From IMG/VR virus record IMGVR_UViG_3300020392_000026, positions 1 through 44,501 of that record: 44,501 bases of DNA. The stretch is one strand, 5' to 3'. Source of the DNA: a virus. Under the pieces are notes generated by a model. The model was not told the origin of the DNA. It did no database searches and saw only the letters and a program-made list of their open reading frames with translations. Both the position numbers and the translations under genes were made by a program. Below, piece by piece: positions 835 through 40,889 of this stretch (the stretch's first letter is position 1; each line of letters begins with the position of its first letter).

Positions 835-996
835 CTAAACTCCGTTTGGAATTACACTGACCAAATCATAGGTTTTAAACATGTCACGAACTTGTTGCTC
901 ACTATACGCATACACATACAAGGACAGAGCCTCTAATGCATCGCCTTCAACATTTGTTTCATAGATTTCTGCAAATTCAACCAAGTATCTAATCAT
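835..996 (-). CDS. small hypothetical protein (53 aa)
   Basis: A 53-residue ORF (MIRYLVEFAEIYETN at the start, YDLVSVIPNGV at the end). The start is well supported: ACTACGGGAG lies directly upstream and a consensus-like promoter lies at 1033-1061, so this is the first gene of the leftmost operon. The leader is nearly the exact complement of the putative small RNA at 5382-5452. No function is recognised. Confidence 0.6.
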   Translation of the reverse strand: MIRYLVEFAEIYETNVEGDALEALSLYVYAYSEQQVRDMFKTYDLVSVIPNGV

Positions 997-1032
997 CGTT
1001 TTAACTCCCGTAGTTTGTGAACGATACCCCCA

Positions 1033-2315: not shown

Positions 2316-2777
2316 CTACTTTGCGTGTAGCTCGTAAACCTCTGCCACTCGTGCTCTGCGCTTCACCCGTTTATCACGGATGCTGACAATTTCTTTAGTG
2401 CGGCCACAGACATAACGTCTGCCCTGCACTAATTGCCAATGCCAGCCTGCCACGATGAGGAACACCCGTTTGGCATTCCTGTCTTTGACAGAAGCCTTCA
2501 GCCAGCCCGCCAAGGTGACGCCGTCAGTGCGGTTGAATTTAACATCCCAATAAAGTCGGGCATCTCTCATTCGGATACCGTTTTTAAGTAGGATATTTTG
2601 CACTTCCCAAGTGCCAGTGCCGGTAATCATGCGGCGGTTACTAAATGCCCGAAGCTGGGCAGCGGCCTCGCCGGTTGTGATGCCGGTGATTGCGCTGATT
2701 ACGGCTGGCCCACAGTAGCGGTTTTTATCCCGCTTGGATGAACCGTGGTTGACAGGCTTAATGCGAAGATTGGTCAT
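2316..2777 (-). CDS. papain/C39-like putative cysteine peptidase or related fold
   Basis: A 153-residue protein with the signature of a peptidase-C39-like papain fold. NRYCGPAVISAITG (about residues 20-33) places a candidate nucleophile Cys at the start of a helix, and VAGWHWQLVQGRRYVCGR carries the candidate His. The usual Asp after the His is not obvious, so activity is uncertain. There is no signal peptide or double-Gly leader processing context. A strong ribosome binding site within AACTACGGGAGGGTCTTATG decides the start. It is transcribed alone, between the terminator at 2268 and the 420-bp regulatory region upstream. Confidence 0.6.
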   Translation of the reverse strand: MTNLRIKPVNHGSSKRDKNRYCGPAVISAITGITTGEAAAQLRAFSNRRMITGTGTWEVQNILLKNGIRMRDARLYWDVKFNRTDGVTLAGWLKASVKDRNAKRVFLIVAGWHWQLVQGRRYVCGRTKEIVSIRDKRVKRRARVAEVYELHAK

Positions 2778-3197
2778 AAGACCCTCCCGTAGTTATTAAC
2801 AGTTTCAAATAGCGATACCCACTTTGGGTATTGGGACACCTCCAACAGGTAATCCCCTTATTATATAATAATAACAGATACTTAGAATACTTGTATCCTA
2901 TATGCGACATATCTTATACCATATGCGACAAAATAAGAAAAAAATTATTCTCGTAAAATTACTCATAATGAGTATTAACCTAATTTAAGTTAAACTCCCA
3001 TAATCGCCCATAGAAGCCCATACAGTGGCTTCAGGTGTTTTCCGGTGGGTAAGTACCACGGGCCGTGCTCATCGCATTTTTAGCTTCCAGCCTTGGTTAC
3101 AGAGCCTTTTCTTTTTTTTAGGGGAGAAAGTTATAGGGTGTAAGATTGTATGTTATATTATAAGAGTAAGTGTTTATTTTATTATGGGAGATAAAAA
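2778..3197. promoter_or_regulatory. 420-bp gene-free divergent regulatory region
   Basis: This region separates the minus-strand C39-like gene from the plus-strand zinc-finger gene. From the left it holds the AACTACGGGAG leader (around 2782-2793), a small inverted repeat ATACCC/GGGTAT, a minus-strand TATAAT (2860-2865) without a good -35, and two direct copies of ATATGCGACA 21 bp apart (2900-2930). It then becomes AT-rich and ends in a GC-richer stretch (3001-3100) with no gene that has a start codon. TATATTATAAG around 3153-3165 may be the -10 region for the plus-strand gene. Confidence 0.55.
2900..2930. promoter_or_regulatory. operator-like direct repeats ATATGCGACA
   Basis: Two identical 10-mers at 2900-2909 and 2921-2930 have starts 21 bp apart, so they lie on the same face of the helix. 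An inverted copy of the core, TGTCGCA, lies at 3492-3498 within the promoter region of the next plus-strand gene. A regulator encoded nearby, such as the ribbon-helix-helix protein at 6147-6287, could bind them; that is inference. Confidence 0.5.
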
Positions 3198-4542: not shown

Positions 4543-4877
4543 TGTGGCTTCTCCGGTTTATCTTGACCCGTATCCGGCATCCAGTGCGTTACGTCATCCG
4601 TCAGCCAACCGGTGTCGTTTCCAAATACATCATGCACCCATATTTTTGCGTCAGGGGCTTTACCGTTTTCAGTCACGCCCGTGGTGCCGTCAATCTTTTC
4701 ATACGGCCAGCCGTCAACGTAGCTGCCGTCTTCATTTTGATTAACGCCAATTTCCTCATGACGCTCATAAACGCCACGCTCAAGAACCGTAAAGTCAAAG
4801 GCGTCGTGATGAAAAAAATACCAGACCTTCTGCCCGTCTTTGGGTTTTTGGTCACCAATAAATATCCACTCACTCAT
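4539..4877 (-). CDS. DUF551-like protein (112 aa)
   Basis: The C-terminus DDVTHWMPDTGQDKPEKPQ and the N-terminal WIFIGDQKPKDGQKVWYF match the pattern of DUF551-type phage proteins, which end in a VTHWMP motif. The role of that family is unknown. It overlaps the upstream gene by 8 nt and the downstream gene by 4 nt. Confidence 0.7.
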   Translation of the reverse strand: MSEWIFIGDQKPKDGQKVWYFFHHDAFDFTVLERGVYERHEEIGVNQNEDGSYVDGWPYEKIDGTTGVTENGKAPDAKIWVHDVFGNDTGWLTDDVTHWMPDTGQDKPEKPQ

Positions 4878-5313
4878 CTTTCATCTCCACTTCACTTACA
4901 GGGTGTACATTTTCCATAGTCCACTCGTGACCATCATCTGCTTTGACCCACTGCGAGATATCGTCTGCATCTTTCGCAATCTGCCAAGCTGTATCAGCAT
5001 TTGGTGCTTCAACAACTAGTTCATATGCCACATCCATCGTGGCGGTTACTTTAAACTTTGGCATTGTTGTCCTCCTCATCACAGGTGCATCCAAAGCGGT
5101 CATTGCTGGCTCTGCGTTTTTGTTAGCTTCTTGATATCCGGCTTCATACGCACTGCGTATTTCGTCTTCGATATTTAAAAGATCATCGTGATTTATAACG
5201 CAAAGAACGGGGTTAGCGTCACCGGATGTTCGCACCATGTCATCATATTGATTAGTGTTACCTGATGCATAGGCAACAAGTCGTTTTACAGAATGTTTTG
5301 CACTAAACTTCAT
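4870..5313 (-). CDS. hypothetical protein, first gene of a five-gene operon (147 aa)
   Basis: The start is fixed by the leader AACTACGGGAGATTGAAATG behind a consensus promoter at 5345-5373. The protein seems to have two halves. The N-terminal half is acidic and helical. The C-terminal half begins at an in-frame ATG at 5064 (MPKFKVTATMDVAYELVVEA) and looks like a small alpha/beta domain. That internal ATG has the strongest ribosome binding site of the operon (AGGAGG, 6 nt spacing), so a 64-residue short form may also be made. No family is recognised. Confidence 0.65.
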   Translation of the reverse strand: MKFSAKHSVKRLVAYASGNTNQYDDMVRTSGDANPVLCVINHDDLLNIEDEIRSAYEAGYQEANKNAEPAMTALDAPVMRRTTMPKFKVTATMDVAYELVVEAPNADTAWQIAKDADDISQWVKADDGHEWTMENVHPVSEVEMKDE

Positions 5314-5344
5314 TTCAATCTCCCGTAGTTACGATTGTCTTCTC

Positions 5345-5373
5345 TATATATCTTATAACATCCCATATGTCAA
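5345..5373 (-). promoter_or_regulatory. sigma70-like promoter for the 3927-5313 operon
   Basis: On the minus strand, -35 TTGACA (5368-5373), 17-nt spacer, -10 TATATA (5345-5350), then a ~25-nt leader ending in AACTACGGGAG before the ATG at 5313. This is among the best promoters in the window, and it lies just after the terminator of the upstream unit. Confidence 0.75.
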
Positions 5374-5381
5374 GCAAAGAA

Positions 5382-5416
5382 AAAGCCCCCTGATGGTTGG
5401 ATCATCAGAGGGCTTT
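5382..5416 (-). terminator. strong intrinsic terminator (small RNA 3' end)
   Basis: A 14-bp stem with one G-U wobble pairs 5382-5395 with 5403-5416 around a 7-nt loop. On the minus strand it is followed by TTTTCTTTGC. It ends the putative small RNA and any read-through from the operon ending at 5496. Confidence 0.9.
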
Positions 5417-5452
5417 ACTACGGGAATTACAACCATCATTGCCAATGACTGT
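5382..5452 (-). ncRNA. putative ~70-nt antisense small RNA
   Basis: A minus-strand promoter (5459-5487) and a strong terminator enclose about 70 nt without a plausible ORF. The transcript has a 5' hairpin (TCATT/AATGA), then the single-stranded segment TTCCCGTAGT, then the terminator stem. TCCCGTAGT is the exact complement of ACTACGGGA, found at the ribosome binding sites of the genes starting at 996, 2777 and 5313. Against the 996 leader, complementarity runs over about 17 nt with one mismatch and one G-U pair. It may block translation of these mRNAs. Alternatively this is only the 3' UTR of the upstream operon. Confidence 0.55.
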
Positions 5453-5458
5453 GTTTTC

Positions 5459-5487
5459 TATATAAGACATTATGAGGTAAAAAGCAA
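5459..5487 (-). promoter_or_regulatory. sigma70-like promoter for the putative small RNA
   Basis: On the minus strand, -35 TTGCTT (5482-5487), a 17-nt spacer, -10 TATATA (5459-5464). It closely resembles the promoter at 6410-6438 (TTGCCT, 17 nt, TATAAT). It stands immediately after the stop of the zinc-ribbon gene, and only the ~70-nt terminated segment follows. Confidence 0.65.
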
Positions 5488-5495
5488 GTGTTTTT

Positions 5496-5762
5496 TTAGT
5501 CTAACATATCTGGGGTAATTCTACCGCTCGCTAAAGCATCCATGAGTTCATCATCGGACATAAGGTCTATGTTAACTTTTTGTTTTTTTACTTTTTTCTT
5601 AACAGCCTTCAACCGCACAACCTTTGCCGGTTTATCTAAAACAACCTCATGTGTTTTAAATTTATGGCCGCAGTCGCAAGACCTAAAGCGGTGAACCGTC
5701 CCAGCGTGAGGTCGGCTGTTGTACACCTGTGTCTTTTTGGTCTTGCATTTGGGGCACTTCAT
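5496..5762 (-). CDS. NrdR-like zinc-ribbon protein (88 aa)
   Basis: The N-terminus MKCPKCKTKKTQVYNSRP, then FRSCDCGHKFKTHEVV, follows the pattern of the zinc ribbon of the ribonucleotide reductase repressor NrdR (CPxC, DSR-like turn, C.CG..F.T.E). The ATP-cone that follows in NrdR is missing. Instead there is a Lys/Val-rich linker and an acidic tail (LMSDDELMDALASG). It is probably a DNA-binding phage regulator, perhaps a NrdR decoy. The ribosome binding site GGGGAG precedes the ATG. Confidence 0.7.
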   Translation of the reverse strand: MKCPKCKTKKTQVYNSRPHAGTVHRFRSCDCGHKFKTHEVVLDKPAKVVRLKAVKKKVKKQKVNIDLMSDDELMDALASGRITPDMLD

Positions 5763-6494: not shown

Positions 6495-8387
6495 TCACTC
6501 AGCCTCTCCCCAGCTCGGCCCTATCTCAATATCGCACTTGCTGGGTATCTCCAACGGTACAGCATTTTCCATAATTTTAGCAACTGTCTCTGCTTCTTCT
6601 TTAGTTTTCAAGGACATGGCTACCTCGTCGTGTATCTGTATCAGAGGCAAATACCCTTCTTTGTACAAGTTTACCATGGCCTGCTTAGTCATATCTGCGG
6701 CAGACGCTTGGATAAGCCTGTTCAAAGCTTTGTACGTGTAAGCTCGCTTCAATCTGGTAGTTTCGCCATATTCTTGAACAGCTTCTTTATAAGGCAGGGC
6801 TTTGTTCATCGCAAAAGTGTCCGGCTCCCAAAGGTCAAACCGGCACTTTCTGCCCAGTATGGAACGGATAGAGCCGCTTGATCCGCGGTCATTCAGCCTG
6901 TTTTGTACGCCGTTCATCAACCCTTTAACAAACGGGACACGTTCATGGTATTGTTTAACAAGAACTTTTGCTTCTTCAACATCAATATCTAGTTGGTCGG
7001 ACAGCTTGTTCACGCCCATGCCATACATCATTCCAAGATTAATTGTCTTGGCCTGCTTACGAGCAATCTTAGCCATATCTGCTACCATGGTGTGGAAATC
7101 CATATCTGGGTCATTGCGGTAGCTATCTACAAACTCTTCTACCCCTGCCATCTGCTGGCCTCGTGATTTACCGTACACATAGGCATAATGAACCAAGATC
7201 CGTGGTTCCTGTTGCGAGAAGTCTATAGCCGCCCACTGGTCGCCTTCTTCAGGCAGGAATAGGCTACGTATCATAGGCCCCAGTTCTGGGTCACGGGCAG
7301 GAATTTGCTGTAAGTTAGGGTTGTTCATAGATATGCGGCCCGACACTGTACCGCCATCGTCAGAACGTATCTGGTTGATGTGGCTATGTATCCGGCCATC
7401 ACTGTGGCAGTGCTTCATAATCGTGTTGATGAACGTGCCACTGGTCTTGTTCAGGTTACGTGCTTGCACAATATATTGTGCTAATTCGTGCGGATGTTCT
7501 GACAGAAATGCTTTTGTAAAAGATGGCGCACCTTTTTCTGTCTTTGGATAGGGGATATCTAACTTATCAAAAGCCTGAGCTATAGATGCGGCCGCCCATA
7601 GCTCTACCTGTCCACCCGCTATATGCTGGATTTTATCAAGCACTTCCTTTTCTTTTTTAACCAGATGGTTTCTGGTGCGCTCTACGCGGTCTTGGTCTAC
7701 CCGTACCCCGCGCCATGTCATATCTATCAAGCAGGGCAACAGGTCGAGCTCAAGGTTGGCTATGGGCCATAACTCTTCTTTTGTTAGTTGTGTAGACAGG
7801 TGGTTCCAAAGTTCTAACGTAATTTCAGCGTCATTTTGTGCGTAGGGCCCGACATACATAGCAGGCATCTTCCAAAGGTCAGCCTTTGGGTCGAGACCAA
7901 ACTCTCTCGCGGCTTCTTGCAAAGTCTTCTCTGACTTCACTTTTCCTAACAAATCGTAACAAAGGTTGTTCAGGCTAAAGCTGTACCTGTTTTCATCTAA
8001 CAGTGAGGCGATTAGCATCGTGTCAATGATGCGACCGTTGATGGTAAAGCCCATCTGCCGTATCCAGCCCGCATCATACTGTGCGTTGTGCATAATCTTA
8101 TCTGCCGGTGACGCGAATACTTTTTTTAGCCAGTTGTTAACTATGCGCTCGTCTAAGTTGCCGCCACCTAGATGCCGGATAGGTACGTAGCCTGCCCAGT
8201 CAGCAACAGCTATGGCATAGCCTACAACTTCGCCGTCACCGGTTGGCCATCCGGGCCCGTTGGTCTTAATGTTAGGGTCTCGTGTCTCTACATCTATGGC
8301 TATCTGCTTGGCTTCAAAGATGTCTGGTAGCTCAGCAGGCGGAACCCACTCACTCTTCGGGGTGAACATTGTCATTTGTAACGCCAT
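6495..8387 (-). CDS. polA: family A DNA polymerase with 3'-5' exonuclease
   Basis: A 630-residue replicative polymerase. The exonuclease domain has AIDVET (D32, E34), HNAQYDAGWI (D105) and YAQNDAEIT (D186). The polymerase domain has motif A AAIDFSQQEPR (D389), motif B RKQAKTINLGMMYG (K447 to Y455) and motif C QIHDEVAM (H586, D587). The residue aligned with E. coli Phe762 is Leu451. There is no 5'-3' exonuclease domain, as is usual for phage enzymes. AGGA 6 nt upstream supports the start. It is the last gene of the replication operon. Confidence 0.95.
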   Translation of the reverse strand: MALQMTMFTPKSEWVPPAELPDIFEAKQIAIDVETRDPNIKTNGPGWPTGDGEVVGYAIAVADWAGYVPIRHLGGGNLDERIVNNWLKKVFASPADKIMHNAQYDAGWIRQMGFTINGRIIDTMLIASLLDENRYSFSLNNLCYDLLGKVKSEKTLQEAAREFGLDPKADLWKMPAMYVGPYAQNDAEITLELWNHLSTQLTKEELWPIANLELDLLPCLIDMTWRGVRVDQDRVERTRNHLVKKEKEVLDKIQHIAGGQVELWAAASIAQAFDKLDIPYPKTEKGAPSFTKAFLSEHPHELAQYIVQARNLNKTSGTFINTIMKHCHSDGRIHSHINQIRSDDGGTVSGRISMNNPNLQQIPARDPELGPMIRSLFLPEEGDQWAAIDFSQQEPRILVHYAYVYGKSRGQQMAGVEEFVDSYRNDPDMDFHTMVADMAKIARKQAKTINLGMMYGMGVNKLSDQLDIDVEEAKVLVKQYHERVPFVKGLMNGVQNRLNDRGSSGSIRSILGRKCRFDLWEPDTFAMNKALPYKEAVQEYGETTRLKRAYTYKALNRLIQASAADMTKQAMVNLYKEGYLPLIQIHDEVAMSLKTKEEAETVAKIMENAVPLEIPSKCDIEIGPSWGEAE

Positions 8388-39380: not shown

Positions 39381-39863
39381 TTAAGAAGTTGGAGCGTCGG
39401 AAGAAATACCGAAAAACTTCAACGCAATAACACCCCCAGCACCGGCTGTACCAGAAACAACTAGTTCTACTTCGTCAGCAGTGGTATCTGCCGCAGTCGT
39501 AGCACCACCAGACATTCCTAATGCACCGTTGCAAGGAAAGAAACCTTTAAAACCCGTAGAATTTATGGCCGCAGATATTCCATCTACGTAACCATCTGTG
39601 TCTGTATCAGTGCCAATATCTACAAGATTAACAGCGTTAGCGGCGGCACTTGTAACTGTAATTGCTACACCCATAGGTATAAAATTGGCCGGAATACCTA
39701 TTGAAGACTCTTTATGAGCCGTTCCTGTAGCAGCAACTGTTATAGAAGTGCTATAGGTGGAGAGAGTCATTTCATTAGTAAGACCTCCGGTTGTGGAGTT
39801 CTTAATAATTGTTTTAAACCCGTTTTCTGAACGGACTGGACCTGTAAAAGTAGTATTAGCCAT
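39381..39863 (-). CDS. structural protein (160 aa)
   Basis: A beta-rich, Ala/Thr-rich protein (TTFTGPVRSENGFKTII, STSITVAATGTAHKESSIGI, VIALKFFGISSDAPTS). FTGPVRS-type starts occur in phage capsid-decoration or head-fibre proteins. It is the first gene after the capsid terminator at 39933-39958. Confidence 0.65.
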   Translation of the reverse strand: MANTTFTGPVRSENGFKTIIKNSTTGGLTNEMTLSTYSTSITVAATGTAHKESSIGIPANFIPMGVAITVTSAAANAVNLVDIGTDTDTDGYVDGISAAINSTGFKGFFPCNGALGMSGGATTAADTTADEVELVVSGTAGAGGVIALKFFGISSDAPTS

Positions 39864-39932
39864 TTACTTCTCCTGTCTTGGCTAGTGTCAACCCCCCGAT
39901 GGAGTTGTCAGGATAATTAATAATACAATAAA

Positions 39933-39977: not shown

Positions 39978-40889
39978 TTATGCTGCGCCCGGTGTGCCAA
40001 ACACACAACGCCAATCCGAAACACCAAAGCTATAACGCTCACGTGCCTTAAACCGCATGTTACCGGTGTCAAAGTCACCTTCCATAGCAGTTTTGATTGG
40101 AGAACGGTTAAAGTATTTGAAACCGTTAGGTGCATCAGTTTTGATGAAAAACGCATCTGTATCTGTCAAGAAATGGTTAACTACCGCCCCTTCGGGAAGC
40201 ATACCCATGTTCTTGATAGCATTTGCGTCGTTATCAGCCGTTGCTGAACGTAAGTTTGAGTTGATTACTCTCTCCGCAATAAATTGCAATTCTTTTGGAA
40301 TAATCAGCTTTGTACCACGAACAGCAATCTTCAAACCCCGTTCATCGGTAAACCCTGCGATATCTATCAACATCTGCTCAAGTGAAGTTTCATTCAAATC
40401 AGCGGCAGTTGACAGCAAGTTACGCTGGTTACCTGAAAGAGATGGGTGTGATGAAGAGCAAAGTGATGCACCGTCACCGATTGCAGATGCGCCTGCTGTG
40501 AACGCGTTGTTCAAAATAGCCGCAGCTTTAATCTGTTTGGTCTGAGCCATGGAGCGGGCCAGAGCCTTGGTGTAACGAGATGCCAAACGGTCATACAAGT
40601 TATCTTCGATGGCTTCCTCAGTAATTGAGAATGCCAAAGCGATTGTTTCATGTGTGTACCGTGCGGTAAATGTTTCTTGAGCATCATCAAAAGAGACGGC
40701 TGCGCCCTCTTCTTTAGTTGGTGCTGTTGAAAATCCACCGAGCATCACCTCTTCTTCAAAAGAACGATCTGAGGCTTCTTCTGCAAAGATCTCAGCATGT
40801 TCGTTCTCATAACGGTCGTACTCAAGCCCAAAAAGTGCATTCAGACCGGGTTCTAGCTCTTTAGCTAGTTGTGCTCTTGAAATAGCCAT
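39978..40889 (-). CDS. major capsid protein (303 aa)
   Basis: The N-terminus AISRAQLAKELEPGLNALFG and acidic EVMLGGFSTAPTKEEG, then VSFDDAQETFTARYTHETIA, LYDRLASRYTKALARSMAQT, and VRGTKLIIPKELQFIAER, match the HK97-fold major capsid protein of the marine phage family. It is preceded by a scaffold-like gene and GroES, and followed by a terminator, which fits the most abundant virion protein. Confidence 0.85.
   Translation of the reverse strand: MAISRAQLAKELEPGLNALFGLEYDRYENEHAEIFAEEASDRSFEEEVMLGGFSTAPTKEEGAAVSFDDAQETFTARYTHETIALAFSITEEAIEDNLYDRLASRYTKALARSMAQTKQIKAAAILNNAFTAGASAIGDGASLCSSSHPSLSGNQRNLLSTAADLNETSLEQMLIDIAGFTDERGLKIAVRGTKLIIPKELQFIAERVINSNLRSATADNDANAIKNMGMLPEGAVVNHFLTDTDAFFIKTDAPNGFKYFNRSPIKTAMEGDFDTGNMRFKARERYSFGVSDWRCVFGTPGAA

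Follow-up and report, generated by a model that had tools for sequence, protein, structure and literature searches.

A conserved phage locus predicted to encode a small RNA that pairs with a shared ribosome-binding-site tag of several phage genes

The locus and its complementarity within the window

The window, i.e. the whole stretch of 44,501 nucleotides analyzed here, carries on its minus strand, between gene 5496-5762 and gene 4870-5313, a unit of about 110 bp composed of a promoter-like pair of elements, a predicted transcript and a terminator. Gene 5496-5762 (-), the immediate upstream neighbor of the RNA, codes for a protein with an NrdR-like zinc ribbon (PF22811, E 8e-11), the match covering only the N-terminal zinc-ribbon domain of the NrdR repressor. 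The predicted small RNA gene spans positions 5376-5452(-), i.e. about 75-77 nt, with its start (~5452) deduced from the position of the -10 element. The original prediction had placed a sigma70-like promoter in front of it, and this claim held in part: a -35 element TTGCTT (5482-5487(-)) and a -10 element TATATA (5459-5464(-)) are separated by a 17-bp spacer, and promoter-like elements recur at the same place in relatives, with TTGNNN at the equivalent position and a conserved TATA-type -10. However, the pair is only a fair match to the consensus, hence weak by that measure, and was not listed by a promoter scan of the window (threshold 9 of 12).

The RNA (5452-5376(-)) is predicted to fold with a minimum free energy of -27.7 kcal/mol (z -3.4). 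Its 5' part forms a 10-bp hairpin with a GCAA loop (5429-5452(-)), the equivalent of which has undergone compensatory changes in three clades of related phages. This is followed by an unpaired segment of 12 nt, AAUUCCCGUAGU (5428-5417), which contains the seed UCCCGUAGU (5417-5425(-)), and by an intrinsic terminator (5382-5416(-)), which agrees with the one originally described, having a 14-pair stem and a 7-nt loop followed by a T-rich tail. The terminator stem was found in the sequence and shows compensatory changes in relatives, while the T-rich tail, though present, is not diagnostic of Hfq or ProQ binding.

No conserved open reading frame was seen inside the unit across clades, in line with the earlier view that it is non-coding; the frame starting with ATGATGGTTGTAATT was rejected, as it runs through the terminator and is not conserved. 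A search of Rfam 15 gave no family match for the small RNA at gathering score, and a His_leader match over this region, far below its own gathering score, was judged to be due to chance. The only Rfam match in the window was RF03012 (Mu-gpT-DE; 39861-39913(-), 59.8 bits, above gathering score), which adjoins ORF 39978-40889 on the 3' side of that frame. Because of this association, the ORF looks like a Mu gpT-type head protein. No tRNA genes were found in the window.

The seed UCCCGUAGU is the exact complement of ACTACGGGA, a motif that occurs exactly four times in the 44.5-kb window: at 1006-1014(-), 2785-2793(-), 5321-5329(-), and 5417-5425(+). As originally proposed, the three minus-strand copies are located at the ribosome-binding sites of three genes, which start at 996, 2777 and 5313; at the fourth copy, the minus-strand RNA carries the complement. 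Four occurrences compare with 0.28 expected, and this number was reached in none of 100 shuffles. The nearest target gene (4870-5313(-), 147 aa) has homologues with the same leader in other contigs. It possesses its own promoter (TTGACA-17 bp-TATATA, 5345-5373(-)), which follows closely on the small RNA terminator, so that the RNA is expected to reach its leader from a separate transcript and not as a cis-antisense RNA. The second target gene (2316-2777(-), 153 aa) has homologous targets in contigs L003, L007 and L037, and the third one (835-996(-), 53 aa) is the gene at which pairing extends beyond the core. None of the three proteins has a family match. As read from the sequence, the RNA and the 996 leader form 13 contiguous pairs, including one G-U (UAAUUCCCGUAGU / ACUACGGGAGUUA), so that the predicted G-U pair was found, but the duplex is slightly shorter than the approximately 17 nt, with one mismatch, that had been claimed.

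Duplex energies computed without constraints for all leaders did not discriminate, as internal structure is not taken into account, and they were replaced by cofold binding and motif statistics. In the cofolds, the seed pairs with the leader while both hairpins of the window RNA stay intact, and binding was mostly strongest for seeds and leaders of the same clade. A stricter null, in which the anti-Shine-Dalgarno half of the seed was kept and only the other half was shuffled, yielded modest per-contig p values (0 to 0.17), which are weak because part of the seed fits many Shine-Dalgarno sites (many leaders share TACGGGA).

Across the group, the targets are mostly small proteins without a family match, and there was no antirepressor family match among them. 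The others include a DUF7227 protein, a GIY-YIG protein, a DUF932-like protein, and, in L006, the terminase small subunit. The idea of a dedicated RNA for a set of small phage genes gained support from conservation and co-variation (see below), but its targets are not all small.

Two further features of the intergenic regions were observed. The promoter regions at 5320-5500, 990-1080 and 2880-2950 share short elements, for example CCCATA/TATGGG and TATGCGA, near the -10 position, and such elements are also found upstream of the RNA gene in relatives; they possibly form an operator for a phage regulator. Additionally, short direct repeats of GGTACCGTC lie beside A/T-rich runs at 2184-2206, within the intergenic region 2000-2250.

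Conservation of the RNA gene in related contigs

Relatives were collected by scanning IMG/VR with the PolA protein of the window (6495-8387), which gave 80 related contigs. In most of them, a unit on the same strand downstream of polA comprises a promoter-like element, a 5' hairpin, an unpaired seed and a terminator. The RNA gene was detected by motif in 37 of the 40 contigs with at least 2.6 kb of sequence downstream of polA, and a covariance model (E 3e-9) revealed a 38th carrier, L014, that the motif search had missed. In contigs L053-55, the RNA seemed absent by regular expression, but a variant seed is present. Weak regular-expression or model matches in L067 and L068 were excluded, as they look like promoter sequence. 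In a negative control, many contigs were matched by the seed patterns alone, without the terminator unit, and few matching leaders accompanied them.

The clade alignments show an invariant seed with variable flanks. In three clades, 97-100% of the cells at paired positions were paired, and both helices contain several pairs with changes on both sides. The covariation score was reached by none of 500 shuffles and collapsed when the partner was slid; since the structures were derived from these very alignments, the slid controls are biased toward them, and the pairs changed on both sides are the stronger evidence. The covariance model built from clade A (R1) finds the window at 8e-8. Two contigs that combine clade A seeds with a clade C-like terminator, L135 and L183, were found both by R1 (2e-5 and 6e-5) and by the clade C model R2 (2e-8). 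Thus, the covariance check suggested with the original prediction, for which absence of conservation had been named as a refuting outcome, came out in its favor: the promoter-terminator unit is conserved in dozens of contigs, and its helices covary. Furthermore, in an unbiased search comparing every terminator-proximal 8-mer with every start region, this seed was top or joint-top in the window and in L003, L006, L007, L020, L034, L065 and L066.

These data bear on the possibility that the segment is simply the 3' untranslated end and terminator of the mRNA of gene 5496-5762, with a complementarity that arose from inverted duplication of a leader. The segment lies 44 nt past the stop codon of that gene, and 17 of 21 bases at 5417-5437 are identical, in inverted orientation, to the 996 leader, as had been noted before. 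However, this wider resemblance is not retained in relatives, where only the core of 9-10 nt is conserved, the helices covary, and the unit recurs with its own promoter-like element at 0.3-2.5 kb from polA in different clades. Even if the RNA were released from a 3' untranslated region, the regulatory interpretation would still stand. We therefore consider a mere 3' end very improbable and favor a separate small RNA gene.

The carriers of this RNA gene form a group of uncultured, apparently marine phages. It was not found near polA in the four closest cultured phages (DSL-LC04, 023Pt_psg01, HTVC023P, and HTVC027P). Relatives were also present in three MAG contigs, assigned to Verrucomicrobiales, Rhodobacteraceae and Maricaulis bins; as these bins disagree, the contigs are probably misbinned.

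In two clades, a second C-rich loop is conserved: CCCCAA, located in the 5' hairpin in the majority of clade A RNAs (L005, L010, L011, and others), and UUGCCC in the terminator loop in clade C (L057-L066). It possibly represents a second contact site.

Seeds and leaders in the different clades

The original prediction had called for complementary leader changes in relatives, and leaders were indeed found to alter with the seed in at least three ways. In clade A (28 contigs), the seed CCCGUAG is accompanied by CTACGGGA leaders. Each of the 36 same-strand occurrences of ACTACGGGA in this clade is located at a start site, ACTACGGAG is absent, and the 29 opposite-strand copies of ACTACGGGA in the 28 contigs are essentially the RNA genes themselves. 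In clades C and D (15 contigs together), the seed CUCCGUAG is paired with CTACGGAG leaders; here, 13 of 15 same-strand copies of ACTACGGAG are at start sites and ACTACGGGA is absent. The reversed-motif control gave 0-1. Searches of whole records indicated that the two tags are mutually exclusive, except for one clade C record with two copies of ACTACGGGA. In clade E, the seed CUCUGUAG is matched with CTACAGAG leaders, those in L326 and L329 reading ACTACAGAGG and ATTACAGAGG. Homologous target genes carry the tag of their own clade, as seen for ACTACGGGAG in L019 versus ACTACGGAGG in L058 and L066, and for CTACGGGAG in L003 versus CTACGGAG in L065/L066.

The L014 lineage served as a held-out test. 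Its seed is CCCGUAAU, and the two nearest targets contain TTACGGGA: the two nearest downstream genes have the leaders GTTACGGGA and ATTACGGGA, and L363 and L374 agree. For the second of these genes, a relative with 71% identity over 89 residues occurs in L012, where it is preceded by the ordinary ACTACGGGA tag. Two leaders further away in L374 keep CTACGGGA and would mismatch the changed seed, which means that the shift is incomplete in this contig.

On the PolA tree, clades A, B, D and E are each found on one side of a branch, C lies at the base, and the seed types separate. This arrangement indicates that CUCCGUAG is probably the ancestral seed, from which the other forms probably derive through insertion of a C on the A(+B) side, a C-to-U substitution in E, and a G-to-A substitution in the vicinity of L014. 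The RNA and its targets would then probably have no fewer than three changes in common. As many contigs are near-copies of each other, their counts are not independent, and it is the concerted changes, taken as a set, that provide independent evidence.

Clade B (14 contigs) does not conform to this pattern, for its seed, CUCCCGUAGUU, has almost no exactly complementary leaders. The leaders read AACTATGGAG and pair with the seed only through G-U wobble; such leaders are present at several genes in L042, L050, L056 and L071. The regulon of this clade may be shifting or decaying.

The concerted changes are pertinent to two other explanations. According to the first one, the leader motif is a protein site, bound by a RegA-like translational repressor or used as a DNA operator, and the terminator-proximal copy is simply one more site in inverted orientation. 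The motif is indeed a repeated, lineage-specific element, and repeated start-site elements without a known partner are described for mycobacteriophages (PMC3203893). Nevertheless, a protein site requires no reverse complement, each genome has a single opposite-orientation copy, which is unpaired or situated in a loop and immediately precedes a conserved terminator, and the single-base changes of this copy are matched by complementary changes in the leaders. A protein site is thus highly improbable. The second explanation assumes that the RNA mainly silences host mRNAs and that the phage leaders are sponges or have merely escaped selection. Although the anti-Shine-Dalgarno stretch of the seed could bind many start sites and other phage RNAs, such as PreS and VpdS, do act on host genes (PMC12197685), host genes could not drive phage leaders to change in step with the seed, and in clade A every one of the 36 same-strand copies is at a phage start site. 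We regard a primarily host-directed role as very improbable, and pairing with the phage's own leaders as the better account.

Proposed mode of action and related systems

At the level of sequence, these comparisons establish that a structured RNA gene is conserved, that it is exactly complementary to sites at gene starts, and that its seed has co-evolved with the targets. The locus has the features of a trans-acting antisense small RNA: (i) it is a separate gene with a promoter (by conservation), an intrinsic terminator and no conserved open reading frame, (ii) its seed is complementary to the start regions of several genes at other loci, and (iii) seed-target pairs co-vary between lineages, in clade B via G-U wobble only. 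Hence, we hypothesize that it is very likely a phage gene for a trans-acting small RNA that covers the Shine-Dalgarno sequences in a regulon made up mainly of small phage genes. We infer a discrete transcript and repression rather than activation, and likewise whatever is said here of infection timing, a helper protein and the host.

In the proposed mechanism, a dedicated promoter located past the polA gene group would drive transcription of the RNA, which would present an unpaired anti-Shine-Dalgarno seed between the 5' hairpin and the terminator. The seed would pair over 9-13 nt with the shared tag ACTACGGGA, which covers the Shine-Dalgarno sequence of several phage genes. Such pairing would keep the 30S subunit from binding, in the manner known for P1 c4 and P22 sar (PMC12197685), and the gene set would be switched down once the RNA accumulates. 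The RNA gene is placed after the replication genes and beside the accessory genes it would target, and it is plausible that it turns these adjoining genes down in mid-infection.

It could also be argued that pairing of the RNA with the leaders serves to activate or protect the mRNAs. Activating small RNAs exist, and the direction of the effect is not readable from the sequence. However, the pairing covers the Shine-Dalgarno sequence itself, which in c4 and sar blocks translation (PMC12197685), and in the cofolds we noted no inhibitory leader structure that would need opening. Activation thus appears quite unlikely, and we retain the repressive role.

The c4 RNA of P1/P7 is similarly an antisense RNA encoded by a phage; it base-pairs in the region of the ribosome-binding site on a phage mRNA and blocks translation of this mRNA, with pairing segments exposed by the RNA structure (PMC12197685). 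Nevertheless, c4 acts on one mRNA (ant) in immunity control, whereas the present RNA has its own promoter and terminator and would act on several unlinked genes through one tag. P22 sar and lambda OOP and aQ also affect the translation or stability of phage mRNAs (PMC12197685), but each is antisense to a single gene (ant, cII, and Q, respectively), in contrast to action in trans on several leaders through a 9-13-nt seed. The absence of an Rfam match, the several targets and the lack of an antirepressor family match among them set the RNA apart from both P1 c4 and P22 sar. VpdS of VP882 and PreS of lambda are phage small RNAs that act in trans, VpdS affecting both phage and host mRNAs (PMC12197685); they differ in being Hfq-bound, in belonging to temperate phages and in having host targets, and no co-evolving shared ribosome-binding-site tag is described for them in that article. 

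Bacteria possess chromosomal trans-acting small RNAs with C-rich anti-Shine-Dalgarno seeds, e.g. RsaE and AbcR. These too have a seed, unpaired or in a loop, that masks the Shine-Dalgarno sequences of several mRNAs, and a 3' terminator, but they regulate host genes, and the RNA described here has no Rfam match.

Phage RNAs that mask one start site are already known, and within the literature searched the new element is the co-evolving ribosome-binding-site tag shared by several genes; we found no report of a phage RNA serving such a set, in a search that left most subscription papers and all bioRxiv preprints outside its reach. The phage antisense RNAs covered by PMC12197685 mostly act on one gene and come from temperate phages, compared with a tagged regulon in an uncultured, apparently marine group here. 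The data further suggest a small collection of natural RNA repressor/leader pairs, each having its own specificity. One might speculate, as a rather tentative idea, that the system is a lineage-specific RNA code, in which one small RNA is combined with a matching ribosome-binding-site tag, and genes enter the regulon by acquiring this tag. Code and key would drift together, giving each lineage a private regulon and possibly causing interference with related phages that share the tag, and repeated start-site tags in other phages, among them the Start Associated Sequences (SAS) of mycobacteriophages, would reflect the same principle, evolved independently.

The closest pattern found was SAS, a conserved 13-bp element over the ribosome-binding site of 11-19 phage genes in cluster K mycobacteriophages; it is conserved beyond the Shine-Dalgarno core, and four genomes have one opposite copy that is not at a gene start (PMC3203893). 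It thus resembles the leader tag in being a start-site repeat with one copy in opposite orientation. The two differ in sequence (13-bp GGGATAGGAGCCC there, ACTACGGGA and variants here), host and phage group, and the function of SAS was still called unknown in 2024 (PMC11373665); the passages of PMC3203893 considered here propose no small RNA for it. The arrangement reported here, in which a repeat at start sites is accompanied by a single inverted copy ahead of a terminator, provides a general recipe for finding such RNAs and a testable idea for the unexplained SAS. The SAS loop motif was absent from the stretch examined in Cain, Amohnition, Keshu, Yuna and KiSi. In Adephagia (JF704105, 58682-58694; L331:28683-28695), the lone opposite SAS occupies the loop of a long conserved hairpin within a non-coding gap of 432 bp. 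Enkosi and Anaya retain this arrangement, which was noted in L331, L334 and L338. A terminator-like hairpin follows on the minus strand, where the loop would carry SAS itself. The long hairpin is a possible analogous start-site RNA of uncertain strand, since no terminator-like hairpin lies nearby other than the one on the minus strand.
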